Shown: positions 13,655 to 51,509 of the stretch, piece by piece
Position numbering within the stretch: position 1 is the first letter of the stretch
How the letters are laid out: each line of letters begins with the position of its first letter
DNA from: Ulota crispa
Taxonomy: Eukaryota > Streptophyta > Bryopsida > Orthotrichales > Orthotrichaceae
Direction of reading: 5' to 3'
DNA length: 64,000 bases
Assembly: GCA_963920765.1 (NCBI GenBank)
Contig: OY987248.1
Span: 15,596,539-15,660,538, forward strand
Position numbers and translations under genes: made by a program
The notes under the pieces: model-generated
What the model saw: the letters and a program-made list of their open reading frames with translations, nothing else
The model's database searches: none
What the model was told of the DNA's origin: nothing

Positions 13655-14591
13655 ATCCCTAAAGGCCCAAGTGTCCCCTCGGGGACAAATGGACCTCAGG
13701 CATGTACCTGTGACTAAACCAATTTTTATAATTTTTCTGAAACTTTTCAAGATTGTGGGGAATTCAAAGATGTACGTGCATATCTAATTTTTTTTTTATT
13801 TTGACATTTATTGAAGAAGTTATGCATGAATTTTTGAACAACAGGGAAGTGTAGGCAGTCCGGGCATCCCAAAAAACTTCTTAAAAAATTTCATGTTTCA
13901 AAATTAAAAATCTGAAATTGATTCTTTAGATTTTTACAAATGTGGGAAGCTTTGAATCATTCAATTCTGATTTATGAGTGAGAAGTTTTGGTTTTCAGGT
14001 AGGTATGGGATTCCCAAACCTCCACTGTTTTTGCCCCTTGTAAAATTTGGTCCTTGAGTTTTTTTTTGACTATTTTTTTTCCAAGTTGTAGTAGATTAAG
14101 ATTCCTTGGTTTTCACCATTTGGATCAAAGTGATTCAAATCTCTAAATTTTACATAAATCCTCCAATTTTACCTAGTGTATATGCAAATTTCATGGCCTT
14201 ATGGCATTGCAAGATTTTACAAAGTATGATTAACACCTCCAATTCATTTGAAAATTCTCCCACACTTACCTACCTTAGTCTTTTACATGGGAAAAGTAAA
14301 CTTCATCTTTGCGTTGAGAAATTTTTTTGATATAAGAGAGGTCGAAGGCTTCTAAATGTTTTGGGCAGCAAGGAAAAAAACTTTTTTTCTGACTTCAGAT
14401 GTGAATATCTTACTCATTTACATTTAAAATGAGCTGATTTTTTTTTCCACTAGTACTAGCCATAGTCTAGGGCAAGATCCTATGGTTGAATTTTCCAAAA
14501 AAACATGTTTTCCTACCTTTCTACTCATTCCTCCAAAAATGGCAATTTTGAGTGACTTTCACATAAAAAAAGGGCTTGGGCCTTTAGGGGT
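13655..14591 (+). mobile_element. Family A element, copy 1, TTAA-flanked
   Basis: Ends ATCCCTAAAGGCCCAAG and CTTGGGCCTTTAGGGGT, 937 bp. TTAA spans the left junction (13652-13655) and the right junction (14591-14594). Near the left end the sequence GTGTCCCCTCGGGGAC forms a local palindrome shared by other copies. An uninterrupted TTAA at 14230-14233 is the position where copy A5 carries element D4. No frame of note. Confidence 0.87.
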
Positions 14592-14593
14592 TA

Positions 14594-16370
14594 AATCTCA
14601 CTAGTTGGTTTTGTTTACTTAAATTTTTTTAATATCAATGCTAAATCCATAAACAAATATAGTAACGCCCTACTTAAATCTCCTTTAGTCTTCCACAAAA
14701 ACCAAGCAAACCACTCACACAACTGTTTTGAAACATTGCTTTTGTTGATCATCCTTCACCTCAAATTGGATTCTTTTCCTCTTTAGTAAAACAACAAGTG
14801 CAAAAGGGTCACATGTCAAACTTGAGGTCTTAGCATGATTTTGAAATATATTGCAAAAAACACCTCGTTTCTAAAACTACATACCAAAAAACTCATTTAA
14901 AAAAACATGTATAAAATGAGTAGATGGGTGATTGAGATAATTCCACTTAAATCTAAGAGAAATTAAATATTGTTTGAAAAAGAATCTATCATTCACCTAA
15001 AACATATAGTGAGTATGATAGCACAAAATGATATTACATCCAATAAATTGAATTATCAATCATTTTAATTACATTCACTCACATTTATTAGAATGAAACA
15101 TTAGTATCATTTGGTTGCAATACTAGTCCCAAGTTACGTTCAATACATTAAACTAGTCACAATATTGGTTACACAATACAATAAAACATGTTTCATTTAC
15201 AAACATTAAAATAATAGAATTGTACATATAATATAGGTCATACCATATGAAGATAGTAATTTTAACACAGCTAGCCACATAACAACAAGTTACTCCACAT
15301 AGTGGAACACTAATATGTGTGCCCAAGGTGAATAGTGAGCACTTGCCTTTGAGACACAATATAGGCAAATTTTTGTTGAATTAAATGTATTGAAGGGTCT
15401 AGCTATGACAACATCCAAGTTTGGTCAACTTGATATTTTTTGCAATGGAGTCCATGCATCAATTCCTAAGCATGTTATGTGCAAAACAAACTTTTCAAAA
15501 GTCATAAATGTATGCAAAATAAATGTACAAAGTTTTTAAAGAGGGAATTTAAAAACTCCATTTGCATAAAATATTTCACAAGCCTTTCAAAGAGGCAAAA
15601 TTTTAATCTCAAAACATGTATCATGTACGAGTTATACAAACTAGTCAAAATCTATTAGCTAAATCAAAATCTATGAGCTAAGACAATTACCATAAACAAC
15701 AGGAGTATACATGGTTGAAAATGTACTACAAAGAAAACCTTATGTGTTGCTCTCAAGGAAATATTCATTATAGTTTTATTGGCATGTTTGACTATCATTT
15801 AGAATGATGCAATCATTTTACTCCTACCTTGAGACTCATTCTTCAATGACACCTTCAAGAACATGCTTATATTGTGCACCTATTCTTACCTTGTTCAAAT
15901 TTGTCACACATTGTCAGTCCAAATTTGCAAGGCCAAAAAAATAATTGATAAGTTCACAAAAGAGTTGGATGACACCATTCATCAAAAAGTCACCAAAAAC
16001 ACATTAGACATTTTTACAATGCTGCAACTCTAAAGTGTTCTACCCCACCTTATAACATTAGTGCAATTGAAGTACTTTTAAAGTGATTCTTTATCTTGTA
16101 TGTACAAAACATTGCAACCCTTTCAACAAACTTTTTGTGCATAATAATTCATTTGTTCATTGCAAAAAGCGTATTACCCTGAACATATTCGTCAAATCTT
16201 ATAGCAACTTGGTTTGGAAGCACATTCAAGTGCACACGTTGAAGGTAATGTTCACTTTTGTCTTTTACATAATATCCCAATAATTCAGTGTAAAGTGCAA
16301 ATCAAAAACTTTGGAAGGTTTTGGTGGTAATATGGTGTTCAAATTAAATCACTTTGAGCGCTCCTCCTTT
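14594..16370. other. AT-rich spacer with diffuse word repeats
   Basis: No gene. At about 15050-15240 words such as CTAGTCACAATATTGGTTAC and ACATTAGTATCATT recur in diverged form and resemble the block at 18470-19400. Confidence 0.4.
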
Positions 16371-16372
16371 TA

Positions 16373-16730
16373 ACTCTTAAAGACGGATGGATCATCCTGA
16401 CTTGCTCTGTATGTAGCATTTTACAATGTTTTGCAGTTGGGCATCAGTAATATTGTTTCAAAAAGTTGGAAAAGTCAATTGTACATGGTGCCCTCATGAA
16501 AATTGCAAAAAGGGCAGCTTGGGAGCTAGCACCGTGTTTCTAAATCTGATCATAATTTGGGTTATAAAAAGAAATGAATGCATCTCAAGAGGTAGTATTT
16601 TGTCTTCCATGATGGACCATGTGTTTATGGTCACTTTTAAAAAAATCAAATGAAAAATGACTTTTTCTGAATCGCACAATATTTTTTCAGAGCCTGAGGA
16701 CATTTTTTGTCCTCTTCGACGTTTAGGAGT
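16373..16730 (-). mobile_element. Family B element, copy 1, TTAA-flanked
   Basis: Ends ACTCTTAAAGACGGATGG and CGTTTAGGAGT, with TTAA at both junctions. The interior matches the reverse complement of B2 (32581-32930), for example GTGCCCTCATGAAAATTGCA and ATTTGGGTTA. Length is 358 bp. The small frames inside are not conserved. Confidence 0.84.
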
Positions 16731-16732
16731 TA

Positions 16733-19700
16733 AGATCCGTTTGATTGATTTAACCCAATACTCATGCAATTATTATTCACGTATAAAATATCAATTGCAT
16801 GTGCAATTGTAGGGAACCCCCATCTTTTAATCAACAAAAGTTAAAAACACATTTTCCTCAACTATTGCTTTTGTCTTTTGCAAGAGCTTAATAGAAATGT
16901 CAAATCTCCTAAAAAAATGCCTTTCACATGAATGTTCTTAGGTTGAGCATTATTTCTTTTTTCTAGAGTTTCAATTTTGCTACTAAGTTTTTGAGGTGCA
17001 AATAATTTTTGCAATACAAATCTTTTTTGATATCATGAGATTTTTTGGTTAAAGGGGCTTTGTTTGCATCAAAGTTTCTACAACTAAGGATTTTTAGCAT
17101 TGCGGATGTTTTTTTGACTAACAACAAATTAATGTAGTGCATGCAACTAATGAAATGGATATGTTTGCAACATGATGTCTTACTACCACAAAAAAGAGCA
17201 ATATAGGAAGTTGCACCTCTATGGCATTGGATTGTCCAAACCAAAAAACTATATGCATCAGCCTTCAGCAACTCAAACTTTGAAGTTAAATTAATTCAAA
17301 ACTTTAATTAATACACCAAATTTAATTCTTGACAAGACCTCTTAAAATCAAGCCTTCTAAACAATCACCTTGAGTAAAATGTCATTCCTAACAATTCATA
17401 GTAAGACGTCTTGTAGTTTAGTAACTCCATTTACTGCAACTCAAACCAAAGCTTTAATCCAAGTTGATTAAAGCTAACTAGGAAAAAAACAATTTAATTG
17501 AAGCAAGTAGTATTTTCCACCTTAAATGGAAAAATGTGATTATTGTGATCTTATCTCAATAGAACTTTAATATTGTTTCAAATTCATGACATGTAAAGGT
17601 ATGTTTGTTATATAAATGTTTTAGATACAATATGGCAATGAAATGACAAGAGTATTCCATTAAAAAAATTCACTTAATGATTTTTGTAGTTGTATTTCAA
17701 GGCTCAATGTGGTAGCATGCTCTGCAGGGTGCAACGATGTATAGATTGTAGATTTGCAATGCATTTAAGCAAATTATAGAGTCCAAGCAAAAAATATCTC
17801 CTTTTCAACTAATTTTTGGAATAGTGAGCATTCAAACTTGACAAAATCACACACCCAAATGGGAAGAAAGGGTAATATTGCATTCAATGTGGTGTCTTTG
17901 TGTAAATATTGTAAATCTTGCAGTGTATTCAAGCATATTGCAAATAAATACAAAAGTCTTATTACATTATTAATTATACAAGGGGCATTTGAAATTACTA
18001 GAACTACATAGAAAAATTTAGGCAAAGATGATTAAAGTTTAAGAAACACAAAAATCATTCAAAAAACACTAAACTTTATAAAGTAATAAACTAGACAACA
18101 AAAAGGTGGGATGGTTTGAAATGAAATAAATCTGCATTTATAGTCATTACGAGAGTCGTTAGCTTGCTCCATCACTAATAGAAAATGGCAACATAGGCAT
18201 TGAAATTTCCAATTATTTTCTAGGGATGTTCAAGCCTCAAAATGAATTTATTGCAATCCAATAATCATAATAAAATGACACACAATGAAGTGATGAGGTG
18301 ATTGTTGTAGTAGCAACAAAATTAACATTTAGATGATGATGATTGCTACTAAGCAACCATATTCAACCTAATATGTGAATTTTAATGGTTTTTATCTATG
18401 TTTGGTCTTCTCTTTGGCTTTCTCTTTGGCTTAATTCCAGTTCAAGCATGCCATTTGGACATCTTTTAGTGGATAATCACAACACAAGTCACAATACTAA
18501 GCACATCATAGAATGAAATATGTGTCTTGCATACAATGTCGTGGAACATTAGGCACAACACTAAAATATTGATTATAATATATGAGAATATCCAGTCATA
18601 TCATAGAGTAACGTTTCATTCTTAAATTGAATGGAGTAGAATATTAAGTACAATACTTGAACATCAGAGACAATATTACAGTATCAAGTTGAATGACAAA
18701 GTAGAATACCAAACTTGCATTTGATGAAGTAAAATATTAGATTGGATGTTGAAACATCAATCACAATTATTGTATATCAAAGTACTAAATCACATTATAA
18801 AGTCATCTCATGTCAAATACAATGAAATATCAAAATCTTGAAATACTGTTGTAATATTGGAGTGTCAAATTTTAGAGTAGAAAACTAATTTCACATTTAG
18901 CATAGAATATTAAATCACATTAATTTATTTTTAGTCACATTATTAAATGCAATGTATTAGTCTCGGGTGTAGTTCAAATTTTGTTACAATAATAGAGGAG
19001 CGGCTACATTACCAGAAATATCAATAGCTATATTGGTCACACAATATAGAGGAATTTTAATCATGATAATTATTGCATTGTACTCGAATAATGTAATCTA
19101 GGACAAAACAATGGATTTTTATTTAAGACCTCTTTCCACATAGTTAGCATTGCACATTAGTGACATGACATGGTAGAACATTAGTTACAACGTTATGATT
19201 TTTACAAATCAAATCATATTATACATTAAGATATTGACCTAATTACTAATCATTTTCCACAATAGTAGTCACATTCAATGCAACATGGACATTGATTTCA
19301 ATCACTTTGACATTATAGAAGATTAGTCACAATTTGTCCATTTAGTTTAAAGGAATAGTGGACACATTCAATATACTATATATTGCTCACATGCAAGGAA
19401 TTTATACATGAAAGATATTATTGAGTGGAAAATGTCAATTAGTCTAGTGTTTTGTGACTAAAGTCACTTTTAAAGTGAAAAGAACTTCTAACTACATTGA
19501 ATATTGCGTTTAGGTTGCCCTTGACTAATTTATTAACATTCTACACTACATAAATAGAGTCCTGGACAGAAAGTTGTAGTCCTTTATTTATAAAATACTC
19601 ACGCAATCAATACTTTACCAAATCTAAATCTAACTACATATTTGAAAGCTTAAAAAAAAATAGCAAGTTCTATAAAAGTTTGACACAAATGTAATTAAGA

Positions 19701-20739: not shown

Positions 20740-23088
20740 TGAATATAAAGGTCTAATGTCAAATAATCACATTTTGTCATTATATTTGTATAATTGGATT
20801 TTTCATTGCACTATTCTATGTTTGTTAGTAAGTATTGAAACCTAAATTTTAATTCAATTTGAATATGGATTTAGGATTAGCACTTCTGTAAAGAAAACAA
20901 TTTTTCACTTTCTAATGTAAGCTTTGAGTTTTATGACTTATCCTCATTTGAAGTTGTTTTTGAAAGGTTAAATATTGCATTGAATGGTTTTGGTGTTGTC
21001 GTAAAATAGCTTTAGAAAACTATGCTTCACAATTATCAAAATGAACTCAATGACAAGTGGATGGATATGAAAAGCAAGTTTTGTTTGTACACGACATCTT
21101 CCATTCACTCATCATTCAAGATCTATATAAAGTTTTTTTTCTTCTTAAATTAGAGAGTCAATGTCCACAGTGCTGGATGACAAAAGGATGGTTTGAAAAC
21201 AACACTGCACTCTATTGAAACATATTGGATGGGATTTATTTTCTTTATCAGAAACCATTGAATCATAATTTGAATTGATCTTATTAGTTTGGAATGGTTG
21301 GTGATTTCACATGAAAAATGACTTTTGTATACTACTCAAAGAATCTTATAAAAAAATTCATGCCTCAAAAACATATGAACACTATGCCACAAACCTATAA
21401 AAAAAATGGCCATGAAACACTACAAATTATTTGCTTATATGTTTTTTACTTTTAATTTTTAAAATTAATCCTTAATTTCCAGTAAAATTTGGATTTGGCT
21501 TGCAATCGCCTTATGACAATCACTTAAAAACCAATGTTTGATTAGGATATGAAAATTTTATTCTTGATGAGATCATATGAGAGACCTCACTTTGGAGCTT
21601 GATACTATGTTTCTAATAATTACAAAAAGTGTATAAAAACAATAGAGATCTCGTTTGACTTCTAACCCTCTTTTTTTAAAGAAAAAAGCCAATCGGGGTC
21701 GATGATAGCCATTGACTCAAACAAAAAAAAGTTATACAAAACCGATTGCTATTTATGGAGAGGCACATTACAAAATATGACTATTCTAGTAACAACAAAG
21801 ATAAGAAACGTAAAAACCTATATTGGTTAAAAAATTTAAATTTGTCAAACTACACAATCTAATGCAGAAATTCAATCTTGTTCATTTAAAAAAAATCATA
21901 TTTTCACTATAAATTCTTTAAACTAAAAAAAACATCGACTTACAATTACCTTAGTAAAACAAATTATGTAAGTAATGATTGATTTACTCAGTTTAATCTT
22001 TGTCCAAGTATACAGTAATTTTGCCTCTGAGTACAATGTACTAATGCAATTGTAACTTTGATGAATTTATGCTTGTAATGCGTAGGGACCTAGCACCAAT
22101 ATTGAGTCAGTACAGTTTATACTTTAAAATTTCACGAATTTGTTTGAATTTTGTTCAAAAACTGCATAGTTTTATGCGTTGAAGTACAATTTTAACAACA
22201 AAGTTTCAAAACATGATAGTTGTATGAAATAAAGCATTATCGAGTATTTGTTCAAATTATCAAAAACATCATATTTGTTAAATTGGAAAAAGAGTACATT
22301 TTGGGTCTTTCAATTTAGCATATTACAAAAGAAAAAAACATACAATTTTTTGTACAATATTGTAGTCCCAATGATTGCCTACAAGAATTTCAAATAACTT
22401 TCAACTTTGAGCTATAGCTATGCCTACGTTTATCGTATGGAAAATCAATGTGGAGTACAAAGTGGTACCTCTATTTTTCCCAATTTAACGAATATGGTGT
22501 TCAAAGTAACATAGTCAAATTCTTTCAAGGTTACTATTTGTATAAGTAGTATAATTTACGCAAATTAAAGTATTTCCAGATGAATGAACGAATGCAAACA
22601 ATATTTTTATGGCATATTTTATTTCAACAACCACAACAACATCTACATCAACTTGTCCTTCAAATAATTGGTATTTTTTTAATATAAATGAGTGACTATA
22701 CATATATATATATACAATTTTTTTTTTTTTGTCTAAAATCAAATAAGTTTAAGTACTGTACAGTAAACACAAAATTTATCTCAAACCCATTTTATGGGCT
22801 TTGCGACCTACCAAACTCATGTTACCTATTATTATATCACCTTTATATAGAAGATCTATGGTTTATTCAACAAATAGAAAACAATACTGCAAAATCAAAT
22901 CCAACAAAATACAACAAATAAATAAAATGAGATGAAATCAATGCAATACAAAATTACTTGTTTCTTGAAAGTCTCAAATCCAAAGCAAATTAACATCTCT
23001 TAAAAAATGTCAAGATCTTGAAGAAGCTTCAAATCTAATGACATTGATAGTAGCTTCACATTAAGAGAATAGGTAGTTTTGGAGCCTT
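20740..23088. other. AT-rich spacer, no gene
   Basis: There is a short TA run near 22699-22714 followed by a T-run. No inverted-repeat element or coding region is supported. Confidence 0.4.
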
Positions 23089-23090
23089 TA

Positions 23091-23856
23091 ACCCTTGAGT
23101 GCCCATGCCATTTTTGCCAAAATTAGGGTTTTCGGAGACCGGCAACTTTGATGCATTGTATCTTAGTCAACTGGATGATCCACAAAAAGTGACCATTGAA
23201 AATAGTGGAACACCTACTTAGAAAAAGGTTTGCAAATTTTGGGAACAACTGATCGTGGGAAATGGGAGATTATAACATTTGATCAAACAACATGTGATGA
23301 CAAAATCTCATTTCTTGGTAGGTAATTGCTATTTGATGATTTTTACAAAATTCTATAAGCCCTTGATTCATCTTAAAATTTGTGAGCAGCAAGACTAGAT
23401 GTGAATGCACACACTTGTAAATTACCAAAAATTTCACTTCTTTTTATGTCAAGTTTTAGGGCTTCAAATGGCTATTGCACGGAAAACAATGACTAGTACA
23501 ATCGGTGACGGTTACCATAATAAGGATCTAGAACATGCTTGAACCCTTGCCAACAACTTTTTTGCTACCACAAAGCTTACACAAGGAAGCTTGCTAGGGA
23601 TATTGACCGGTTGCAACCTGTAAAATACTACTTGCCACCACGCCCATATTACATCGTACAATGTTTCACCAAATCAAATCTCTTGCAGCGCTTGTACAAC
23701 AATTTGGCTTTCCTCACCATTACTCCATTGACATGGACAACTTGAATGCTTTCATAATTGTACTTTGTAGCAAGACCAAAAAATTACATCCAGTGCCTCA
23801 AAACAAGGCTTTAAATCACGGGAGGCAATATATGGGGCACTCAGGCGCTCATGGGT
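23091..23856 (+). mobile_element. Family I element, TTAA-flanked
   Basis: Left end ACCCTTGAGTGCCCATGCC; right end GGGGCACTCAGGCGCTCAT then GGGT. TTAA spans both junctions. Length is 766 bp. A diverged inverted copy of its left part begins the window. The right TTAA is shared with the next element, A7. Confidence 0.8.
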
Positions 23857-23858
23857 TA

Positions 23859-25614
23859 ACACCTAAAGGACCTAGTGGCTATTCAACAACCACTTGAGAA
23901 CTTGGGTAGGGTCATATGGAGTTAATTTTTATTGGATGCTCTCAAAATTGTTACACTAGGTGCAAATATGTATCCCCAAGTGGAAATTTAATTGTTTCTC
24001 TAATCGTATGCCCGGTTCAAAATCTATATTGCCCAAATGAAATTGGGCAGCGTAGGCAACTTGGGGCATCTTTGGAGAATCTTTTGCTAAAAATCTCATC
24101 AACTTTTCAAATTTGGGAAGTATGTAACTAAAAAAACATGGTATACAATTGTCAAAAAATTATCTTTGAGCTCTCAAATCGCATTTTAAGAGGAGCCAAA
24201 ATTTGTCAATTATGTTTGGGCAATTTCTAGACAAATTTATTTTCTTCTAACTTTAGGCCCCATTATCTTTTAGTTTATAAATCCAAAGCTCTTGAAACTT
24301 TTTTTCACATATTCCATATGTCTGTCTCTAACTTTTATTGTTCAGATTTCAAATGAAAGACTTCCTTATTGCACAAGAAATCATGAAAGAACGAATAATA
24401 TATTGCCAATTCACTAAACCTCCTTGCATTGCAAGGTGATTCGGAATAAGCTAGTTTCTATATTGTTTCTAAAAAATTTCTTGAGTGAACCTAACATCAT
24501 ATACTTGTGAATAGTCCAAAAGCTCATTTTTGTGTAGACCAAAAACCTTACTCTAGGAAGGCTCAAAGTGGATGAGGCTATTTTGTGAGCGTAAAATGGT
24601 AAGCTTGTGTTTTGATTTAGTGAGCAAGAATCAATTTTAATCTCAAAATCAATGTCAAACTTGAAAGAAGTAACTTTTGTAAAAGATGAAAGTTTAAAAT
24701 GCACAATTATAGGGCTTAATGTACAGTACCTAGAACAAAACACACGTACTTTTTATTTCACACTAACATCTCTCCACTCACCTATCATTCTTTGTGATTA
24801 TAAATTTTTCCTATTTTACTCATACATTGTGACTAAGTTTGTACCTTTGAACATGATGTTATGATTAATTGGTGAAAATTTAGTTAAAAATAAAAATATC
24901 TACTTTACAAAATTTGGACATATCACAGGTCACATTAAGTTCTTTGTAGATCAAATTTTTGTTACCTAAGGGGGTTTGTTTAACATGGAAGATGTGTGTA
25001 TGGATGTTTCCTACATACTCATGCAATTAAATCTAAACAAATCATCACTAATGTTTTTCAATCAATTATCATGTAAAACCATGAATCTATTACAAAATAA
25101 TTCACCAAAAATGGGATTTAGGGTTTTTGGAACTAAAATTTGGTATGCTTATTTGGGATTGCATAAGAATTACAAAACTATGATGCAAAATAAGAAAATG
25201 CCAATCATAAGTTATATTATGCTAGTTCATTAACAAGCAAAACACGTGGTGCATATGTTTTTTTTCTGGATACTGTACATGGTTATAGGTGAAAGTGAAT
25301 ATTTTGACAAAAAATGTAGGCTCACGGCTCCCCGCTAACAAAATAGCATTCCCCGGCTCAAAGTCTGCTAACCTTGTTTTGCAGGAATAAAAAAAAGTTT
25401 TTATTCCTACTTCAAATGTTATAATTGTACAATCCGTGTGGTCAAATGGGCTGAATTTTTTTGCACACATTAACTTATCTATTTTACACACTTTTGTGTG
25501 GTTGAAATTGAGAAAAAAGGTTTTTTGTTTTTTTTTTTCAATTTTGGGCAATGCATTAAAATTTGGAAGTTTTTGAGATTTTTTCTCAAAAAACACCCTT
25601 GGTCCTTTAGGGCT
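23859..25614. mobile_element. Family A-type element A7, TTAA-flanked, abutting I and G1
   Basis: Ends ACACCTAAAGGACCTAG and CTTGGTCCTTTAGGGCT. It is separated from I by a single TA (inside one TTAA) and from G1 by a single TA at 25615-25616. At 1756 bp it is longer than other A copies, and I could not tell whether another insertion explains this. No transposase frame is present. Confidence 0.72.
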
Positions 25615-25616
25615 TA

Positions 25617-30326: not shown

Positions 30327-30401
30327 CATTAATCCATCATCATGGCATGGGACATAACTATTTTGTGTTTCATCTTTCATTAGAAGAAAAGTCATGTCTT
30401 A

Positions 30402-33301: not shown

Positions 33302-33378
33302 TAAATTAACAAAAAGGAACGTTTAGTGGGACAAGAACTATGTCTAATTTGAAGCTTTATATTGGGACAGAGGGAGTA

Positions 33379-38026: not shown

Positions 38027-40394
38027 TGTGCATATTAAGTCCCAGGTTTACCACTTTTCACTACCCAAGTTTTAACCCAAGTTCCACCAATATTCACGTC
38101 TTTCTTGAGTTCTAAATTTTAGATTTGATAATTCAACTAAGTTGGGATCTCACTATGAGAGATGAGACGTGGGTCGTAGGGTGAACCGCCCCTTTGGATC
38201 AGATTAGATTGCAGTCTGTGTATTGTTGATATTCTCCTCATTTAAACTCCCTGGTGGCCTTGCAAAGATGCAGGCGATAATAACTTGTGGTGGGGGGTTG
38301 CCAGTAAAAGATCTTTTTTTCAATTGGGTTTCTGGGGGGTTTTTACCTTACCAGGATCTTCAGTTTGATATTTTTTCAGGTGGGGAGGGCGAGCCCAGTG
38401 GATGATGAGCGTGGCTGATCATGAGGATTTGGGTGGATACCCAATCTGATTCATGGGGGCATGTACTGCGGTTGTATTTGGTAAACAGGTGCGTACTGTA
38501 AGGGCCACTTTGCTACACTAGGAGTCAAGGCCATGTAAAACTTGGGGCTTAAATAGGATAGGGGTGTCGAACCTCTGATTTCAGCATATTTATCCTGAAA
38601 TTCACACAGAGTTATCCGGTGGTTGCTTGTGCAGCAGTCCACAAAGTTGTCACTCTCACATATCTTCAAAAATTAATTAAAGATTGTGGTTGTTTCTATG
38701 CATACTTCCTTCCCTTCTTTCTATTCCATCATTTTGTTCCCTAACATACATGTGATCGTGTCTCACCCGTCACAACGCAAAATTCTCATTAAGAAAGTCG
38801 TAGAGGCAATTCCTTACGCACTTGTCAACAAGCATTTGTCAGACTAGGTCACCTTGCTCGAAGAGAGGAATCCCTAGAAGATCACCTCATTACTTTCTAT
38901 AAGAAGAGCCATAACTTGTTTAAGCTATGCAACACCTTCCGAGGTGCATGATTGACTTATTGGTGATAACTTACAAAAGTTGTTGAGTTATGGGGTGAAG
39001 TCACCCAAAGTTATTGGATGAAAAAACCAAGGTTTGACACCCCCAATGGCTTCAAAAACAATCCCAAGCACCCAATATGATATGAGTGTAATGGGGATTA
39101 ATTTTCTTGTGTGAAAAGGTTTTGAGGCCAAAAAGTCAAGGGCATTAGTGCAAACTTTGCAAATTTAGAAGAAAAGGAAATTTTTATATATAAATGAAGT
39201 AGAACAGTTGATGTTTTTATTCCATTCTAGAGTGTTGACTATGTGAAAAGAACATTTTTTACTCAAAAAAGACACGCTTTAATCAAATCTAACAATGCCT
39301 CCATAGCCAAGAATTGGTTGCCCATTTTTGGAAGACACAATCTTGTTTTTCTTGTGATGAATGGAAAATCACCATTAGAAGTGGCACAAGCTGACCTAGC
39401 CTTGACTTGTAGTGGATAGTTGCCCTAGGTAGGTAGGGGGGTTACCTTGCTAGAAAGGATTTTCCACATGGATTTCTTCATAACATTTTTCACCAGATTT
39501 GATTCCTCCCCAGCAGTAGAGGAATATGCCTCCCTTTATACTTGGGGGAGGTTTTAGTTATAAATTCTGAAAGTTGATTGGTTCTCTGCCAGAGCTTGCG
39601 AATGGCATTTGCTGGGGATCCTCATATTGGGGGAGCAAAAGGGAACCCCTAATGAACCCTAATGATAGTCAACAATGTTATGTTATTGTGAGAGGAGCTG
39701 ACTAATCATGTGGTGCCATATGGAGCAGAGGAAGGCAAATTCAAGCACTTGTTACAAGTTGAGGCTATTTTGGAACACAATAAAGCAGAAGACGTTGTTT
39801 CTCATTGTTGGATTTTTTAAATGAGTTCCCAAGACTTCCATAAAAGGATTTGGGACAAAAAAAAATTGAAAGTTATTTCAATACTCATAAGAGAAGAATG
39901 ATATGACACGCATCTCCGACTCCAAGAATTGGATCCACCCAGAGTGGAACGCCACTTTGTTGCATTGTATGTCAAACATAATTGACGAACTAATATTTTT
40001 ATGTTTAAAAAAAATTTAAGATAACCAACACTCCAAGCTAAAAATGAAATCTCATTCGCTCGGATGACGCTATTTTGTGTTATGTGAGCATAAAATGGTG
40101 AGACATGAGCAGCAATTCATAATTTTGTGAGTAAGAGCCCAATTCTTAACTCAAAACTAATGAAGAAACTATAAAAATAATAAGTTTTACTAGAGATAGT
40201 AGTTTAAAATGCATAATTATAGGGCAATGTCTACATAGTTATAGGTGAAATTTATTACTTTGACAAAAAAGTCTTTCCTTGCTCACAAATCCTTGTTCAC
40301 GTAATAGCATTCCCCTCATTGGTTCTAATAGGTCTCTTCCTCCCTTCCCACTCTTCTCCTCTTCTTCTCTCATATTATTTCCTTTTTCTTGTCT
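38027..40394. other. Spacer, partly G-rich, no gene recognised
   Basis: 38150-38480 is unusually G-rich for this spacer (runs in GGTGGGGGGTTG and TCTGGGGGGT). Short segments at 38740-38960 and 39400-39700 have balanced composition and may be very old coding or transposon remnants, but I see no motif. Confidence 0.35.
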
Positions 40395-40396
40395 TA

Positions 40397-41294
40397 ACCT
40401 CTAAAGGACTATTTGTCCCTTTGGGGGACAAATGGAATTTTGGGTAGGGACATGCTACTACAATTCAAACCAAATTCTATAAGTTTCTCTCCAATGGCAG
40501 AGCTTTGCAAGAGTTATGTGGGAGAATAATTTTTACTAAATTTCAATTTACGGTTTAGAAGTTATAAGGGTAAACATGTGAATTTTAGTTGGAGGGGCAG
40601 CTTGGGCATGCCATTTTTTGTTGACTTCTCCCAAGGGGAACCAATGAAGGAATGACCCTTCATTGAAATCTATCCAGAGCAATAGTGTATTAAATAAATA
40701 CATTATTGTATTTGATGAATGCATCAACCTTTGAATTGCAATAGCTACTAGAGATTTGGTTTTTTTTTCCAAAATACTTTCTTGAATTTGTCGATGAAGC
40801 TAAACTCTTCCAAGTCATTGCTTGGATTTTTCTTTTCTTTGATATATCTTTAGAAAACTTGGTTGGCAAAAAATCTTAATGAAGTGTGAATTTCAAGCAC
40901 ATGTTTGCAATACACGGCCAAAGAGGGTCTGTTCCATGTCTTAGTTGATCACAAAACCTTGGAGAGATATGCCTGACATGATTTAGAGCATGTTAGACAA
41001 ATTTCTTCAGCACCTATAGTGCAAAAATTGTTCACCACATGTGGTCAAAGGTACCTAAAATTTTTGGGACAGGGATAAAAAATAATTCATGTACTACCTT
41101 CAGATGATCACATTTTTCAATCCATACAATCAAACTTCACAAAGTTTTCATGGTATGTTCTTGAATGAGTCTACTACAACATCCTAAGGTTAGATTTTCT
41201 TTTTCTTTTTAAAAGATTTATTTTGGGATCAAATAACTAGAGATGACAATTTTGAGTGTTTTTTGAGAAAAAATGTGCTTGGTCTTCTAGGGGT
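40397..41294 (+). mobile_element. Family A element, copy 4, TTAA-flanked
   Basis: Ends ACCTCTAAAGGACTATTTG and GCTTGGTCTTCTAGGGGT with TTAA at both junctions. It shares the local palindrome GTCCCTTTGGGGGAC with A1. Length is 898 bp. Confidence 0.8.
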
Positions 41295-41803
41295 TAATTC
41301 AAAACATTTAGTATCAAATTTTCTTTCTTTTATTGATAGCTCTTATAAAATTGTGTATTTCCATTTTGAGATGGAAACCACTTTTGAAATTCATGGTTAA
41401 AATAGTAATTAAAGTGAGGTGATGCAACGGTTTCATAACACCTTTAGTTAATTCATCTTTTTTAGCCATTTAATATAGATTTTGAATAGTATGCTAGTAG
41501 AAAAAGAGGAAAGGAGAGATAACGGCACCCAAGGTGAGGGTGAAAAGTTTATTTTATTTTATTTTTTAGATCTTCTTTTGTAAGTTTGAAATTCTTGTTT
41601 GTTATAAAGTATTGAGTGTCAAGCACTGGGTGTTTACCCATCACGTAGAATTTGAAATTTAAGGGAAAGGGAGGGAGCGGAAATGGCACTAAACTTTGAG
41701 GAGGAAGGGAAGGAGAGAAAATGGTAGGGAATGGAAGGGCAAAAAGTCACATGAAAATAAATTCATTAGACAAAGCAAGTGCAAAGTACACACATAGATA
41801 GGG

Positions 41804-41887: not shown

Positions 41888-42827
41888 AGGTGTGCTTTGA
41901 GCATGAAATGTGAAAATTCAATGCTAGTTTTTTATTTATTTGGGATTAAAAGATTTGTTTCACCTCTAGTATTCTAAGGCTATATTCAAAAAACTTGGAG
42001 GTGCTTATATATGAAATTACAAATATAGGACTTTTGAAAAATATAAAGCAAACATACATTAAAAAACAACAATGACACAACAAAAATTTAACAAAAATGT
42101 GTATTTGTTATTCTTTCTTTCAAGGAGGTGGTAATGACGTGATTGAATGAATATTGGACAATTTGAATAAAAAAATAACATTATATTCTCAAATTGCATG
42201 CTCATAAAGTGTGGCATTAGCAATTCCCTATACATATATACACATAATCAATCAAAACACAAAGAATTACAAGCAATAGTCAATTCAAACTCACTATTAA
42301 TCACCTAACTTCATTACACATCCATACACAATTACAAATTGGAATACATAAAAAAACTCTTCAATTCAATACACACATCCCAGGCAAACATATCACCAAC
42401 TTCACATAGACAATTGTAATTTCAATGAACGCAATAAACAAAAATCCACTTTGGTTAGACTAGCATCTCGATATATTTCCAATTCAAGCTTTAGGCCTTC
42501 AAGCATATGCAACTCCAATCATCAACTTGAACTCCAACGTAAGAACTATTAGCTTGAACAAAAAAAAATTATTTCTAAATACCAAACGTATTCAACTATT
42601 TACAAACATAACTTTAATTTGGTCACTTGTACCTATCTAACTGAAATTTTGAAGGCTCTCTACAACAATTAACCTAATTGAAAAGAAACAAGTCTAAAAT
42701 GGTAATTGTTATGTACCTTTTGGACCTTTACAAAGTTAATTTTGAATTATTAAAGTGACCGTCCTCTAAGCATTTACTCGTTTTTTTTTTTTGGAAAATT
42801 GGCAAAATCATCCACAACTTGTGTTTG
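41888..42827. other. AT-rich spacer
   Basis: No gene or element recognised. Confidence 0.35.
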
Positions 42828-43473
42828 ACCCCCCAAGGCCCATGCACTTTCCCAAATATCTCAGAATCTGTTCTTGGATGAACAAAATGTCAACATTTTG
42901 ATAAGTTGCATTAATTTAAAAAAAAATTGTAATTGTACAAATTCAAACTAGATATGTTAGAGATCACACAAGAAAAGAAAACACAATAATGTCACTTATG
43001 GATTGAAAGATTATAACATTTGATCAAGAAGGTGTTAAGACTGTGAAAGTGATTTGAAGTTTTCAATCCTCTTTTCACATCTCAAATTTAAAATTGAGGA
43101 TACCAAAAAAATATGAGTATGTAAAGTGCAACATGTGTAACCCTAATCAATTTCCAGCTTCTTAAAATCTACTCTACAACTTTTTAAATTAAATTTCTAA
43201 TGAGATTGTTCCTCCAAGTTTTAGTGCACTTGAAGCTCATTTCCAAGAGCTCTCAACACTAGAAAGTGAAGATTTGCAATGGATACCCTTGCACAAAATC
43301 TTAAATAGAAAAATCATAATTAATCATTTTCAAAAACAAATTTTTGATACTAAAACAAGACTTCAACAAGAACTTCAAAAAAAAATTTATTGTAATTAAT
43401 CATGAAGAAAATTTAGGCATCCCAAATTATGAATAAGGAGGGACAGTTTTGACCCCCTTGGGCCTTGAGGGGT
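42828..43473 (-). mobile_element. Family D element, copy 1
   Basis: Ends ACCCCCCAAGGCCCATG and TTGGGCCTTGAGGGGT; the right junction is TTAA and the left is changed to TTGA. Length is 646 bp, inverted relative to D2, D4 and D5. Shared interior: ATGGATTGAAAGATTATAAC and CCAAAAAAATATGAG. Confidence 0.83.
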
Positions 43474-43475
43474 TA

Positions 43476-44178
43476 ACATCTTGATGTATGATGGGTCCTT
43501 GATCAAGAAAATAACAAAGAATGTGATCTCTTGGAGTTGTCCTTTTCCATTCATATAAACACCGGTGCCTTATTTTATACATGACATAACATTTAGTAGC
43601 CTGAAGAGAGGCTGCCTTTCCCTCTCTTCATGTATCATCCACAAACTATATCCTAACACAACAAAAAAATAAAAATAAAATATAAAATATAAAATATTAA
43701 AAATATTAAAAAAGAATTAAATTTTTTAATTTTTTTTGACATGGCTAACCCCACATCGACACATGTTGGAGGGAGGGTAGGCCTGATGAGTGCTATTGAA
43801 TGTTATGGATGTTGTAAAGGGTTTGTAAATAAGTTTGAAGATGAATTGCATAGAAAATTTGGATGTTTTAATGATGAGCTTTGACCATTTAGTAAACGGC
43901 AAGCTGATTGACTTCCAAAGCTCTTTTGTTCGAAGGCTATATTTTAACACTCAACAACTTTGCCAAAACCACATTAAATACATGAGGTTGTTATCCAGTA
44001 AGATGGCATTGGCACAATTTTGCAATATTATTTTGTTGCAAAAGAACAGATTCCATGCTCTTTAGTTTATAATGACTTTTGATGAATTGAAAACAGTCAG
44101 TAATGACTTTTTGTGAATTGAAAAGAGTCTGTATTAAAATCAAGGTTGTAAAGTATTGAAATTGTGAATGCTATCAAT
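43476..44178. other. Spacer without recognised gene
   Basis: Very A-rich at 43660-43730. The overlapping frames near 43730-44065 have no known domain. Confidence 0.35.
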
Positions 44179-44180
44179 TA

Positions 44181-45046: not shown

Positions 45047-45423
45047 ACCCACGGCCCTATGTTGTGCATTTAAAACTTTCATCTCCTAGCCATTTCATGC
45101 TCACAAAATAGCATCTTCCCTTCAGAACATTAGGACATTAGGATAGACATAGAAAATAATAGATGCAAAGAAGCTCCTCTTATGAAAACTTTTATAAATC
45201 GGAACTAAGGGCCGCTTTACACTAGGAGCGAAGGCCATGAGAATTTTGGGGCGATTTTAACCAAAATTTAAGCCCAAGGGCCTTGAGAACAACCCCAAGC
45301 ACTCATTATAATATAATTTTAAAAGTGGCTAACTGTCCTACGTGTAAAGGTTTTGAGGCTAAAAAGTTGAGACCACTTGAACAAAATTTTAAAGTTTCAA
45401 GAGAAAAGGGATATTAATCCTTA

Positions 45424-46077
45424 ACCTTGAAATGATCTTGAGGATAGAATGTGTCTTTGATCAATTTTTGAAGTTAAATAAAACCTTATCAAATTATTAT
45501 TTTTAGTAGTTTATATTTTTGAAAGATTATTTTTAAAGTTTAGTTTTAGCTTCAACAATGTGATTTTGCAAACAATTCATTACGATTTTTCTATTCAAGA
45601 TTTAGTGCACGGGTATCCATTGCAATCTTGACTCTATAGTATGTAGTGTTGAGGGCTCTTGGGAATGAGCCTCAAATACACTAGATCTTTGAGAAAAAAT
45701 CACATTAGAAATTCATTTAACAAAATGCAGAGGAGATTTTGAGAAGTCATAAATTGATTGGGGCTATGCATGTTAGGCCCTTTAACCTCATATTTTTTTG
45801 GTGACCAAAATTTTAAATTTGACATGTAAAAAGAAGATTGAAAGACTCCACATCACTTTCAATAGTTTTAACACCTTCTTGACCAAACATTATAATCTTT
45901 CAATCCATAAGAGATGGTGTTGTGTTTTCTTTTCTAATGTAATCTTTAACATGTCTAGTTTGATTTTATACAGTTACAATTCAAAAAGAACTGATACAAC
46001 TTATCAAAATGTTGGTTTTTTGTTCAAATTAGAGCAAATTCCTAGAAGCTTAGGAATTTTAAGGGTTGTTTAGGGGT
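45424..46077 (+). mobile_element. Family D element, copy 2, TTAA-flanked
   Basis: Left end ACCTTGAAATGATC (decayed), right end TGTTTAGGGGT; TTAA at both junctions. Length is 654 bp. Interior shared with the other D copies: GAGCCTCAAATACACTAGA, AACCTCATATTTTTTTGGTG. Confidence 0.82.
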
Positions 46078-46079
46078 TA

Positions 46080-46925
46080 AATGACCATAGGGCATAGTAT
46101 GGACGCTGCCATGTAATTGACATTTGTTACCAATAAGAAGTTTAAGTTTGGGATTGCAAGTCGCTCACTAGAACCACTTTGATTTATTCTCCAACTTCTT
46201 TGTTGATCTCAAATGTAGTAAATGTGTGAATCTATTCCAAATACAAGATAAACACCTCATATTCTACTAATTGGAGTGGCACGCTGAGACGTTCAAGGGT
46301 TTAGAGAGATACAGGAGAGAAAATGATAATTCTACTCCATCCTACAATGTTGAGTATCTCAAAAGAATGTTTTTTTATTCAAATAATCATATTTTGATAA
46401 AATTTGACAATGGCCTCAAGGCAAAGAATTGGCTTCACATTTTTAAAAATCCCAATTTCTAAAGTTGAGGCCGTTTCAAATCTTGTTGTTTAAACATTAA
46501 AATATGTTTTAAAAATTTAACCTTAACTCTTCGCACCTGAAGGCTATTTTTATAATATTAGCCAATTGGATGCCAGCATTAGGGGGTAGGAGTGTTAGAG
46601 GCTGAAAATTAGCCTTGACTTGTAGTATAAAGTGACCGTAAACTCAAAAACTAGCTCTGAAATAGATGTTGTTAAAACAGCTTCCAAAATAGAATTTGCT
46701 TTTGGGGAAAAACTTCACTTTATGAACGCAATTTACAGGAAAATTTAACAAATAGGAGCAATTCTTAGAACATCCAACCTTGTACATTCGTACCGGCATT
46801 GCTTATCTCTGTACAAATACTTCAACGCATACACCAAATCACACATATCAAACTACCTAGTTCAGTAAACAAGCTTCTTGATTAAATTAGTGAATTCTCG
46901 AGCTTTTGATAAAATCCAATTGTGT
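46080..46925. other. Spacer without recognised gene
   Basis: No gene or defined element seen. Confidence 0.35.
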
Positions 46926-46927
46926 TA

Positions 46928-47573
46928 ACCCCAAAGTGACATTGCATTTGCAAGGCTTCTAGGATTTTTTTCTAATTTGAACTAAAAGCCAATATTTTGA
47001 TAAGTTGTATCAGTTCTTTTTTTATTGTAACCGTATAAAATCAAATCAAACAGATTAGAAATCACATTAGAAAAGAAAACACAACAATATCTCTCATGGA
47101 TTGAAAGATTATAATGTTTAATCATGAGTGTGTTAAAACAGTGAAAGTGATTTGAAGTCATTTAATCTTTTTTTCACATGTCAAATCAAAAACGATGGTC
47201 ACCAAAAAAATATGAGGTTAAAGAGCCTGACATGTATAACCCCAATCAATTTATGACTTCTCAAAATCTACTTTACAAATTTTTAAAATGAATTTCTAAT
47301 GTGACTTTTCTCAAGAATCTAGTGTATTTGAGGCTCATTCCCAAGAGCCCTCTACATTACATAAAGTCAAGATTGCAATGAGCACCCATGCACAAAATTT
47401 TGAATAGGAAAATCATAATTAATCATTTGAAAAATCAGATTGTTGAAGCTAAAACTAAACTTTAGAAAGAATTTTAAAAAATACAATATACTAAAAATAG
47501 TAATTTGGTCAAGTTTCATTTAACCTCAAAAATTGGTCAAGGACAGTTTCTATCCCCAATGATGCTTTGGGGT
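46928..47573 (-). mobile_element. Family D element, copy 3, TTAA-flanked
   Basis: Ends ACCCCAAAGTGACATTGC and CAATGATGCTTTGGGGT; TTAA at both junctions. Length is 646 bp, inverted relative to D2. Confidence 0.85.
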
Positions 47574-47575
47574 TA

Positions 47576-48133
47576 ATTATGTATGGCTTTTTCAACTTTT
47601 TAAAATTTTCATGAAAATAAAGGCGCCAAATATTATTCTTAGAAACCATCATCAAAATCTAACAAGAAAATAATTACAAACCTAATTTAAGTTAGCTTAA
47701 AGGTACACAATTTCAAGATAATAATAAACAGTAACTATCCAGTTTGTAATAAGTTCATTTTGATATACAAATATCCAGACAAATATATGAAGTTATCTTG
47801 GCATACAACTGCTAAGTTTCCAACTAAATTAAATTTCAACATCCAGCTGTTTTGTATTAAATGAATCTTACAAGAAATATGGAATTTAGACCCTTGAATG
47901 ATTTACTTGGAGTACAGTATAATGTCTGCCTGTAAGAAACCATATGTGAATTTTAGTGTGAATTTTAGGGTAGTTGAATTCTTTACGTATTCAACAATTG
48001 CCATCAACACTTTTCTAAAAATTTATCACCAAACAAAATATCATTTTGAAATAATATGATTATGCATAAACATTTCTATAAACTCCAAGGAGTCAAAGTT
48101 TTGAGTTTGAATTTTAGTTTGATAGCCTAGTCT
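47576..48133. other. AT-rich spacer
   Basis: No gene or defined element seen. Confidence 0.35.
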
Positions 48134-48234
48134 CAACCCCTAAAGGCCCAAGCCCCCCTTTTTTTGGGTGTGAAAGTCACTAAAAACTGACCAAGTTATG
48201 GGAGGGAGAATTTTCAAATGAATTGGAGGTGTTA

Positions 48235-49142
48235 ACCCCTAAATGCCCAAGGCACTCAATTTGGGTGTTTACAAAACTTTGAGGATGAAAAAATCTTATT
48301 AAATCATTATTTTTAAGATTTGTTTATTTATTATTTATTTTAATTTTTATTCAAGTTTGTTTTGTAGTCTATTTTCAACATCAAAATCTTGATTTTCAAA
48401 ATGAATGTTGAAGATTTTTCTACTCAAGATTTTGTACAAGGGTGTCCACTGCAATCTTGGGTTTTCTAGTGTTGGGAAATCTTGAAAATGAGCCTCAAAT
48501 ACACTAGAGCTTGGAGAAAAATCCGCATTAGAAATTTGTTTAAAAGAAGTAAAGGATCAGATTTTGAAAGTATTAAATTGATTAAAGTTAAACATGTAAT
48601 GACCTTAACCCCTAAGCACCTAGCGCAAGTTCACTCAAATCTAGACCCTTGGAACTCATTCCAATCTAACCATCACCTCAAAGAGATCCACAAAAATTGA
48701 CCGTACCAATTGGTAGTGAACATAGGCCCGGAGTTCCAAGAAAAAGGACACGTCCTTTCACCGTACCATTGAAAAGATTATAATGGTCAAACAACAAAAA
48801 ATTTCAAAACCAAGAGGCCATGTTTTGGCACCTAGGGCGCTCAAGGATTAAACCTCATATTTTTTTGGTGACCAACTTTTTAGATATGACATGTGAAATG
48901 AGGATTGGAAGACTTCAAGTCACTTTTGCAGTTTTAACACCCTCATCTTCAAACATTATAATCTTTCAAACTATATGTGATATTGATATGTTTTCTTTTT
49001 CCATCTAATCTTTAACAAGTTTTGTTTAGATTTGTATGGTTACAATTAACAAAAACTTGATGAAATTTATGAGAAGGTTGATTGATTTTTCAATTTCATG
49101 AAAATCTCAAGAAGCTTAGAAAGGCCTTAGGCATTTAGGGGT
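48235..49142 (+). mobile_element. Family D element, copy 4, nested in A5 and carrying J
   Basis: Ends ACCCCTAAATGCCCAAGGCA and CCTTAGGCATTTAGGGGT with TTAA at both junctions. A1 shows the same site unoccupied with a single TTAA. Length is 908 bp including J. Confidence 0.9.
48608..48848. mobile_element. Element J, nested in D4
   Basis: Ends ACCCCTAAGCACCTAGCGC and GGCACCTAGGGCGCTCAAGG then AT; TTAA at both junctions. Length is 241 bp. In D5 the corresponding site (near 51211-51220) is unoccupied. Internal words (TTATAATGGTCAAACAAC, GGTCAAAC) suggest relation to family I. Confidence 0.8.
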
Positions 49143-49732
49143 TAATCATACTTTGTAAAATCTTGCAATGCCATAAGGCCATGAAATTTGCATATACACT
49201 AGGTAAAATTGGAGGATTTATGTAAAATTTAGAGATTTGAATCACTTTGATCCAAATGGTGGAAACCAAGGAATCTTAATCTACTACAACTTGGAAAAAA
49301 AAAGTCAAATAACAAATAAACAAAGAGCTCAAAAAAGTAAAGCACCAAATTTTACAATGGACATAAGGAATGGAGGTTTGCGGGAGTCTCATAGCTACGA
49401 GCAAACTAAAACTTCTCACATGTCAATCAAAATTGATTGATTCAAAGCTTCACACATATATATGAATCTAAAAATCCAATTTCAGATTTTAATTTTAAAA
49501 ATGCCAGTTTTAAAGAAATTTTTAGGCTTCCTGGCCTCCCTCTTTTTTCAGAAATTCATGCAAAGCTTCTTCAATAAATGTTGGAATGAAGAAAAAATTA
49601 AATGCCCATGCAAATCTTTAAATTCCTCATCTTTCATAAGGTCTTAAAAAATCACATAAAGTAGTTGAGCTGTAACTACATGCCCAAAATCCCACTTGGC
49701 CCCCCAGGGGCCACTTGGGCCTTTAGGAGTTA

Positions 49733-50860
49733 AGTAAGATAAATATAACTTCTAAAAACAATATACTATTATCATATTGCTCTCATTCATTTTGTAAATT
49801 AGGATGTGGAAACTATAAATAACACAATCTTAATGTAGACTTTGTTAATTTCACCAATGAACCAAAAGTTTCAATCCTATGGGACTTTAGAAGCAAATTC
49901 TTAGCATAGAGTATGAGTACAATAATCTTGAGAATTCTATTCCAAATGGTCTTTGTTGCTCATGTGCCATTTCCTTTGACTTAACCTTCCCATTGTATTG
50001 TATTGATCGTACCCATGTACGTAGTGTATAGAATTTTTTCAATTTGGAGTAGTTAATGAAAATCTTCCTCAAAAGGCAAATTGAACCAAAGTTGTGTCAA
50101 CATGTCCTTCACAAATTTGTCAAATGCAATACCCACAAAGTGACAACAAAGCATTCATGGCAAAATCGTTGTTTGTAATTAACGTATGTTAGTATTTTTT
50201 GCTTACTAAAAATTGTCTTGCTCAAAGTATAAGATTTCCAAAGTAGTGCTTAAGTTACCTATATTACAAATGAAATACAACCTCATTACATCCATACAAA
50301 ATATTAGTTTCAATCAAAAATTTAAACCCATTAGTTCGAATTCTTTTGTATAAAATTTGCCATACATTTGACTTACTTTAGCAAGGCATTAAGACTAGGA
50401 CTTTCCCTTGGAGGAGTCAATTAATTGTTATATTCAATAATTGTTATTCAAAAAGCAAGCCCAACTTAGCAGGTTGCCAACCACATCATCAAACACCATT
50501 TTCTACGTTTTGTGAAACCCTCTACTAACTTTCTTGAAAACCTTTTTGTACGTTCTCTAAGATCTTATGGAAACATCTGAAATTGGATACCGATTGAATG
50601 TTTAGAACCTCTTTTTGTTGGATCTCTTTTTATTGAAATTCTATTCTCATTTTCTCTCTTATTCTCATTCTGGAATCACACGTCTTCTTACCAATGTAGA
50701 CACTCACATTTGAATGCTTTATTTAACCCCTAAAGTATGTTAAATTCGGACAGGGTATTTGAGTAGCACATGAATTTCATTGGAGTTGTAAATTTTAAGC
50801 CAAGTCATACATATACAACTGGTCAACAAGGATTTCTTGGGAATTTTTGACATTTGTCAT
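49733..50860. other. AT-rich spacer
   Basis: No gene or defined element seen. Confidence 0.35.
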
Positions 50861-50862
50861 TA

Positions 50863-51509
50863 ACCCCTAAATGTCCAAGGCACCCAATTTGGGTGTTTGC
50901 AAAACTTTGAAGACATATTAAATCTTATCAAATCACTATTTTTGATATTTTTCATTTGAACACAAGTTTGTTTTGAAGTCTATTTTCAACATCAAAAATC
51001 TGATTTTGAAAATGAATGTTCATGGTTTTTCTATTCAAGATTTTGTACAAGGTTTTCCACTGCAATCTTGAGTTTTTTAGTGTTGGAAGATCTTGAAAAT
51101 GAGCCTCAAATACACTAGAGCTTGGAGAAAAATCCGCATTAGAAATCCATCTAAAAAAATACAAGATTAGATTTTGAAAGCCGTAAATTGGTTGAGGTTA
51201 AACATGTAATGACCTAAAACCTCATATTTGTTTGATGACCAACTTTTTAGATTTGACATGTGAAATGAGGATTAGAAAACTTCAAGTCACTTTTGCAGTT
51301 TTAAAGCCCTCATGTTCAAACATTATAATCTTTCAAACTATAAGGGATATTGTTGTGCTTTCTTTTTCCATGTAATCTCTAACATGTCAAGTTTATATTT
51401 GTACGGTTACAATTTTAAAAAACTTGATGAGATTTATGAAAAGGTTGGTTGATTGTTCACTTTCTTGCAAATGCCAAGAAGTTCGGAAAGGTCTTGGGCA
51501 TTTAGGGGT
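50863..51509 (+). mobile_element. Family D element, copy 5, complete and uninterrupted
   Basis: Ends ACCCCTAAATGTCCAAGGCA and TTGGGCATTTAGGGGT with TTAA at both junctions. Length is 647 bp. Closest relative is D4. The best reference copy of this family in the window. Confidence 0.9.

Follow-up and report, generated by a model that had tools for sequence, protein, structure and literature searches.

The short TTAA-flanked elements in the window (the whole 64,000-nucleotide stretch of Ulota crispa DNA analysed here) are most likely non-autonomous (MITE-like) piggyBac elements, inserted at TTAA by the piggyBac-type transposase of full-length relatives, with a probability of roughly 0.9. The conclusion is drawn from the TTAA tips, a paralogous empty site, genomic matches to the piggyBac transposase profile PF13843, an end of element A1 shared with transposase copies and a complete transposase-bearing element at locus L051. 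The initial annotation had already proposed piggyBac, and that reading is supported by the TTAA target, the PF13843 copies and the end that A1 shares with four of them.

The window elements were re-mapped with a tip scan using CCCCTAAAGGNCCAAG that did not demand TTAA. TTAA preceded 14 of the 17 window sites with up to two mismatches, with TTAG, CTAG and TCAA preceding one each of the remaining three, and 16 of the 23 sites with up to three mismatches. The density of TTAA in the window is 0.0077 per base (0.8%), and the reversed CCCCTAAAGGNCCAAG gave no window sites. The table of elements comprises 16; row 45600–46080, with an arbitrary left end, was left out. These elements are given below, together with two further D copies (45421–46080 and 46925–47576) that stand outside the 16; the strand is stated where one was assigned.

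957–1197, TTAA element, 241 bp, tips CCCCGAAAGGACAATG / CCCGTAAAGGATTGAG
13652–14594, + strand, A1, 943 bp, tips TCCCTAAAGGCCCAAG / CCCCTAAAGGCCCAAG
16370–16733, TTAA element, 364 bp, 77% like 32578–32933
23088–23859, TTAA element, 772 bp, tips CCCTTGAGTGCCC / CCCATGAGCGCC
23856–25617, TTAA element, 1762 bp, ends matching a copy of about 970 bp at L062:5149–6115 (80–82%)
25820–26736, - strand, A2, 917 bp, ends TTAG/CTAG
30399–31248, 850-bp span with TTAA tips CCCCTAAAATTCC / CCTCTAAAGGACC, pairing uncertain
32027–33304, TTAA element, 1278 bp, within a Stowaway-type element
32578–32933, TTAA element, 356 bp, nested in 32027–33304
40394–41297, + strand, TTAA element, 904 bp
42825–43476, D-type copy, 652 bp, TTGA/TTAA
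45421–46080, D-type copy, 660 bp, both ends TTAA
46925–47576, D-type copy, 652 bp, both ends TTAA, inverted relative to 45421–46080
48133–49733, - strand, A-type copy, TCAA/TTAA, interrupted by D copy 48232–49145
48232–49145, D-type copy nested in A copy 48133–49733
48605–48851, TTAA element, 247 bp, nested in D copy 48232–49145
50723–51588, span of 866 bp delimited by TTAA tips and containing a D copy, pairing uncertain
50860–51512, D-type copy, 653 bp, tips CCCCTAAATGTCCAAG / CCCCTAAATGCCCAAG

The pairings 30399/31248 and 50723/51588 join the nearest matching tips and are less sure than the others. The right TTAA of 23088–23859 is common to the adjoining element 23856–25617. A candidate at 10228–10808 was rejected, its inverted repeat continuing beyond the TTAA. 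The TTAA elements amount to 17% of the window.

Exact TTAA is present at both ends of 13 of the 16 tabulated elements, and together with the tip scan this agrees with the TTAA flanks first described for the window. The three exceptions are A2, whose TTAG/CTAG ends the initial annotation had also noted, and the copies at 42825–43476 and 48133–49733, which keep TTAA on one side. Tips starting with CCC are found inside the TTAA, some of them decayed to TCCC, CTCC or CACC. The table is no independent test of TTAA because TTAA ends were partly used to build it. Independent of it are two genomic counts, in which TTAA stands directly before 6596 of 7893 exact CCCCTAAAGGNCCAA tips genome-wide and at 18 of 24 non-query tips at loci L001–L020, where a few ends are counted twice through overlapping loci. 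A partner end lay within 1.5 kb at 12 of these 20 loci, with TTAA in 11 and TTAT in one.

The initial annotation had offered a mariner element with a TTAA bias as the alternative, that is, Tc1/mariner-type MITEs with a TA duplication, a tip starting with A (TA-ACCCC) and a preference for TTAA. TA-target MITEs are common in plants, and the host genome holds 134 matches to DDE_3, mostly weak, as well as 886 Stowaway-type tips; furthermore, a TTAA empty site by itself cannot separate TA from TTAA. This explanation is nevertheless disfavoured because the outer T is conserved in 6596 of 6911 TAA-tips genome-wide (95.4%), so that TTAA rather than TA alone is conserved across the genome, whereas the adjoining TA elements vary outside TA. 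With the A1 end also lying after a piggyBac transposase in four copies, the mariner reading is considered very improbable. The contrasting TA elements of the initial annotation are present beside the TTAA set, with AGGTRGGAGCACCC tips near 51594–51910 and a Stowaway-type element at 31520–33378 that encloses the TTAA element 32027–33304; the mariner-type DDE_3 matches may serve these neighbours. Stowaway-type MITEs (Tc1/mariner) resemble the TTAA set in being short inverted-repeat elements of the same window, but differ in their TA target and in their tips, CTCCCTYYGTCCCA, which bear no relation to CCCCTAAAGG. Tourist-type MITEs (PIF/Harbinger) are likewise short, AT-rich and gene-near, but their target, in an excerpt of one review (PMC10004981), is the 3-bp TTA/TAA, compared with four bases on both sides here.

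The nested D copy 48232–49145 has a paralogous empty site within A1 at 14164–14261, where a single TTAA is present and 98 of 98 bases are identical. Across the empty-site rows, exactly TTAA was found in only 1 of 31, the others being off by one or more bases, and at L020 the site reads TCAA in 8 of 14 rows; such deviating rows may be what older paralogs show. The window segment 44590–44880 was set aside as an empty site for the copy on C10 of the element at L051, since by eye only its left flank matches.

A search of the same genome with PF13843 (DDE_Tnp_1_7), as the initial annotation had suggested, returned 120 matches with a best E-value of 1.3e-73. The reading frame at L056 matched the solved structures of piggyBac (6x67, E = 4.1e-20) and piggyBat (9c0f, E = 5.8e-17). 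Among 30 copies examined, aspartate occupies the positions of D268, D346 and D447 in 27, 22 and 26 copies respectively, and all three in 20; most of the 30 contain stops. The 30 domains have a median identity of about 35% and comprise several diverged lineages; the tree and the identity comparison took locus L048 on the wrong strand, while the residue counts use the corrected strand. A Cys/His-rich tail is visible in the copy at L053. The transposase-bearing element at L051 is complete, spanning 5.03 kb with TTAA and CCC tips, and has two copies of about 90% identity with identical ends. A scan of viral contigs for relatives of the transposase confirmed none of 75 pattern matches. Given that piggyBac is best known from animals, the copies could in principle represent animal contamination of the assembly. 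However, the transposase matches are spread over contigs C1 to C11, ten of which measure 15.8–41.4 Mb, and C1 also carries a piece of plastid psaA, which makes contamination the most far-fetched of the explanations weighed here.

The short elements are connected to these transposase copies most directly through A1. Four transposase copies have its last 430–540 bp as their 3' end, in register and terminating at TTAA. These four copies form a single clade (100/97) with a constant spacing of 1632–1766 bases between the transposase domain and TTAA, and the other half of A1 is absent from them. A transposase copy bearing A-type ends on both sides was not found, and neither were the left ends of the A-type copies, which were sought in L057–L060. 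Within 1.5 kb of the 30 transposase domains no A-type tip with TTAA and up to four mismatches was present, the right ends in the A-type copies being located 1.6–1.8 kb past the domain. For 40394–41297, the right 598 bp resemble (71%) the right end of the sister transposase copy L053; global identities between this element and A1 were discarded because the reverse complement scores as high. In the D and 48605–48851 families, matches to transposase copies span 20–27 tip bases only, that of the 48605–48851 tip to L052 covering 27.

The use of TTAA is not unique to piggyBac, being found also in Sola3 and Kolobok. The short elements might therefore belong to such a superfamily with the piggyBac copies as unrelated neighbours, and the link of the A family to the transposase does rest on one end only. 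The constant spacing in the four copies that lack the other half of A1, their grouping in one clade, and the CCC tips, also carried by the complete L051 element, speak against this possibility, which is regarded as very unlikely, if marginally less so than the mariner reading.

In the favoured piggyBac interpretation, a DDD transposase encoded by full-length relatives elsewhere in the genome would excise the short elements and paste them into TTAA sites, mobilising the shortened copies in trans. The tip variants CCCCTAAAGG, CCCCTAAATG, CCCCTAAGCACC and CCCYTGAGCGCC would each be paired with their own transposase lineage. Excision of known piggyBac elements restores TTAA without a footprint and, by analogy, excision here would be expected to leave TTAA intact.

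With the Trichoplusia ni piggyBac (PDB 6X67), piggyBat (9C0F) and the non-autonomous relatives of both, the elements share the TTAA target, the CCC tips and a DDE_Tnp_1_7 transposase with three aspartates; one element here is complete. The differences are the host, here a moss-like land plant with several diverged lineages, and the state of the copies, most of those examined having stops, alongside shortened copies with thousands of ends. By its plastid genes the host agrees best with mosses.

In the available portion of a review from 2022 on the transposable elements of land plants, six TIR superfamilies are given and piggyBac is not among them (PMC9033089). In excerpts of other papers, however, piggyBac-like elements are said to occur in plants (PMC8086355, PMC10813416), PiggyBac is included among the seven MITE superfamilies that one review counts in angiosperms (PMC10004981), and 1230 PiggyBac hits are recorded in a table of fern repeats (PMC6890710); these accounts lessen the surprise. 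Word searches of open-licence papers gave no report of a moss piggyBac transposase among the matches listed. In PMC5505980 piggyBac is an insect tool untried in that moss, and PMC10619864 was rejected, its 'piggybac' being 'piggybacking'. An abundance of piggyBac in a plant lineage would add a superfamily to the land-plant TIR list, and raise the questions of its route of arrival and the reason for its success. It would also supply material for native footprint-free plant vectors; a 2023 review, in the part available, states that all plant DNA transposons found leave footprints (PMC10905368).

More tentatively, and with rather less than even probability, several native piggyBac lineages may have radiated in this moss genome and shaped it, leaving shortened derivatives with well over ten thousand ends and occupying perhaps at least a tenth of it, as a land-plant cut-and-paste class expected to be footprint-free. 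The distance of a subterminal palindrome at base 25 might then be fixed in each lineage while its sequence changes, as if recognition by the cysteine-rich domain (CRD) switches and the geometry stays. Within the region considered (bases 17–33), several ends have palindromes centred at base 25, the position of the CRD site in piggyBac; the likeness is no more than suggestive, since in a stricter test the signal ties with other centres.

An initial annotation held that the inverted-repeat elements of the window are bounded by TTAA and carry CCCCTAAA-like tips, and a scan blind to TTAA bears this out. Allowing two mismatches at most and not requiring TTAA, a search of both strands for the 16-base tip CCCCTAAAGGNCCAAG located 17 sites, of which 14 adjoin TTAA and the other three TTAG, CTAG or TCAA, which differ from TTAA by one or two bases. 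No site was obtained with the reversed tip, and TTAA starts at 0.77% of window positions. Sixteen elements were tabulated, with two further D copies read off the sequence. The 12 outermost elements cover 11,146 bases, or 17% of the window, a local value rather than a genome estimate that includes other inserted repeats and two uncertain pairings and omits the two extra D copies. Because copies of family A are 76–78% identical over their main aligned stretches and those of family D 74–87%, the window copies are, judged by divergence, not young. Two long near-perfect hairpins do not count as TTAA elements: 10228–10808, a candidate that was rejected, is 89% self-complementary and extends past its TTAA, and 37714–37994 has 130-nt arms (91%) and a 21-nt loop.

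The assembly (274.8 Mb, 157 contigs) contains 7893 instances of the 15-base tip CCCCTAAAGGNCCAA, which follow TTAA in 6596 cases, TAA with another outer base in 315 and something else in 982. The outer base is thus T in 95.4% of the 6911 tips preceded by TAA. A mariner-type element with a TTAA bias had been proposed as the alternative; selection of TA only would place T there in about one third of cases given base composition, so the count argues against it and TTAA, not TA alone, is conserved in the genome-wide flanks. In loci L001–L020, some of which overlap, a search that ignored TTAA located 24 more tips, 18 of them next to TTAA. For the D-type tip TTAACCCCTAAATGNCCAAG there are 3055 occurrences; among the matches listed, 20 pairs face each other at less than 1 kb, 18 of which span 637–664 bp.

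A piggyBac transposase gene, sought in the same genome, is present. Searching the assembly with the piggyBac transposase profile PF13843 gave at least 120 matches on contigs C1 to C11 (best E 1.3e-73), a count in which some copies are split over two rows; 14 control genomes, prokaryotes as far as named, gave none. The open frame of copy L056, which has N at the D447 position, matched the solved piggyBac 6x67 (E 4.1e-20) and piggyBat 9c0f (E 5.8e-17). Among the 30 best copies (L021–L050), aspartate is retained at D268 in 27, at D346 in 22, at D447 in 26 and at all three in 20; lost aspartates are mostly N. These domains contain 117 stops (64 TAG, 37 TGA and 16 TAA), and only L031 is stop-free. 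Stops rich in TAG and TGA together with D to N losses are as expected if methylated copies had decayed by C-to-T changes. The transposase copy L054 (G000:C2:34594948-34595949) has a domain without stops and all three aspartates, and no TTAA-CCC-type tip was found in 7.5 kb; it could be a piggyBac-derived host gene. Just downstream of the transposase frame of L053 lies a long short-period repeat array (L053:4572-5171).

One transposase-bearing element could be delimited in full:

L051:463-5489, 5027 bp, complete transposase-bearing element, TTAA-CCCCTCATCGCC...GGCAATGAAGGG-TTAA

Its ends form a 14-base inverted repeat with two mismatches, and the transposase domain lies inside. A copy on C10, 90.5% identical over 4.0 kb (620 bases in between left out), has the same right TTAA in different flanking DNA, and on the left starts at the same base, with TTCA.

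That the short elements are non-autonomous piggyBac elements, as first suggested, is supported, for one end of family A, by four transposase copies that end in the right half of A1. A1 positions 14053–14594, 14079–14594 and 14059–14594 align with L057, L058 and L060, respectively, at 75–76% as far as TTAA; in L059 alignment stops at 14503, followed by a TTAA tip where one is expected. In the four copies TTAA stands 1705, 1632, 1756 and 1766 bases downstream of the domain. The left half of A1 gave no match to these four loci beyond low-scoring alignments, so the shared ends do not come from complete A elements that landed beside the transposases. In a tree of the 30 copies, which includes one misread row (L048), the four form one clade (support 100/97). 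The sister row L023 is copy L053, whose right end matches window 40394–41297 (598 bases, 71%). Chance neighbours do occur, since A-type copies are abundant and the L055 transposase is also adjoined by one, facing away; at L057–L060 the uniform spacing, the orientation and the grouping in one clade speak against coincidence. Left ends of these four copies were sought and not found. Family D matched transposase copy L063 over 20–21 tip bases, and the element at 48605–48851 matched L052 over 27.

Empty sites were sought by joining 155 candidate end pairs over one TTAA and comparing them with fetched sequence only; the junction was spanned in 31 rows for three pairs. The D copy at 48232–49145 lies within an A copy, and the corresponding place in A1 is a single TTAA (98/98 bases identical), while other, more diverged paralogs read other than TTAA. 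For the 247-bp element at 48605–48851, itself inside that D copy, TTAA was read in none of five rows, the closest being TAAA at 51153–51284 (87% identical). A 1485-bp span in L020, seemingly two adjoining elements, lies inside an A copy; of its 14 rows, eight had TCAA and not one had TTAA. The one clean empty site is therefore TTAA, and the others show four junction bases without matching the exact target. An empty TTAA is insufficient alone; TA duplication is excluded by the outer-T count. Nesting is three deep (48605 in 48232 in 48133), and at 23856–23859 a single TTAA is common to two elements whose tip types differ, as would result if one had landed at the edge of the other; earlier copies thus served as targets.

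Full-length piggyBac copies would have supplied transposases recognising the ends of each lineage, and these would have moved their own elements and shortened copies into TTAA, with trans-mobilisation and footprint-free excision presumed by analogy with the known piggyBac family. Unusual here is the setting rather than the family or the mechanism, both of which are known. The six TIR superfamilies listed in a land-plant review do not include piggyBac (PMC9033089), plants are mentioned for piggyBac briefly or in tables elsewhere (PMC10004981, PMC6890710, PMC10813416, PMC8086355), and word searches of open-licence literature turned up no description of a moss piggyBac transposase.

The cysteine-rich domain of piggyBac is described as binding a palindrome at bases 17–33 of the left end (PMC7351741). 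Several moss families carry palindromes that differ in sequence and have their centre at base 25 or close to it. Inverted repeats scoring at least 6 in bases 13–45 were found in 15 of 48 A/D-type ends, against 4.6% of mononucleotide shuffles and 2/48 in the next segment. Centre 25 topped 120 centres across 109 ends and remained highest when 75 clusters contributed one end each, with centre 52.5 nearly equal; none of 500 shuffles reached centre 25. When 48 clusters from a stricter selection were compared over a longer range, centre 25 tied with 82, with 78.5 close, and 6 of 400 shuffles reached it. The signal is suggestive.

The window also holds TA-flanked elements:

31520–33378, Stowaway-type element, tips CTCCCTTTGTCCCATTATAAAGC / CTCCCTCTGTCCCAATATAAAGC, TA-flanked
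458–763, second MITE-like kind, tips AGGTRGGAGCACCC, TA-flanked
2028–2309, the same kind
51590–51910, the same kind

The Stowaway-type tip pattern occurs 886 times genome-wide, and the AGGTRGGAGCACCC-tipped elements are 81–90% alike in matched stretches. Both psaA and psaB lie on contig C157, where the psaB protein scored 1714 bits against 8htu, 1711.8 against 6l35, 1710 against 7ksq, 1675.8 against 9lut and 1632.3 against 7wfd, the last from Arabidopsis. The top-ranked chains for a psaA piece on chromosome C1 were 6l35 and 8htu, of which 6L35 is given as Physcomitrella patens (PMC7884438). The host is thus probably a moss or something closely related to mosses. A Pfam search of four window pieces gave a single RING match, just under the cut-off. 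By eye, we take the window genes to be plant-like (IBR5-, casein-kinase- and RING-like).
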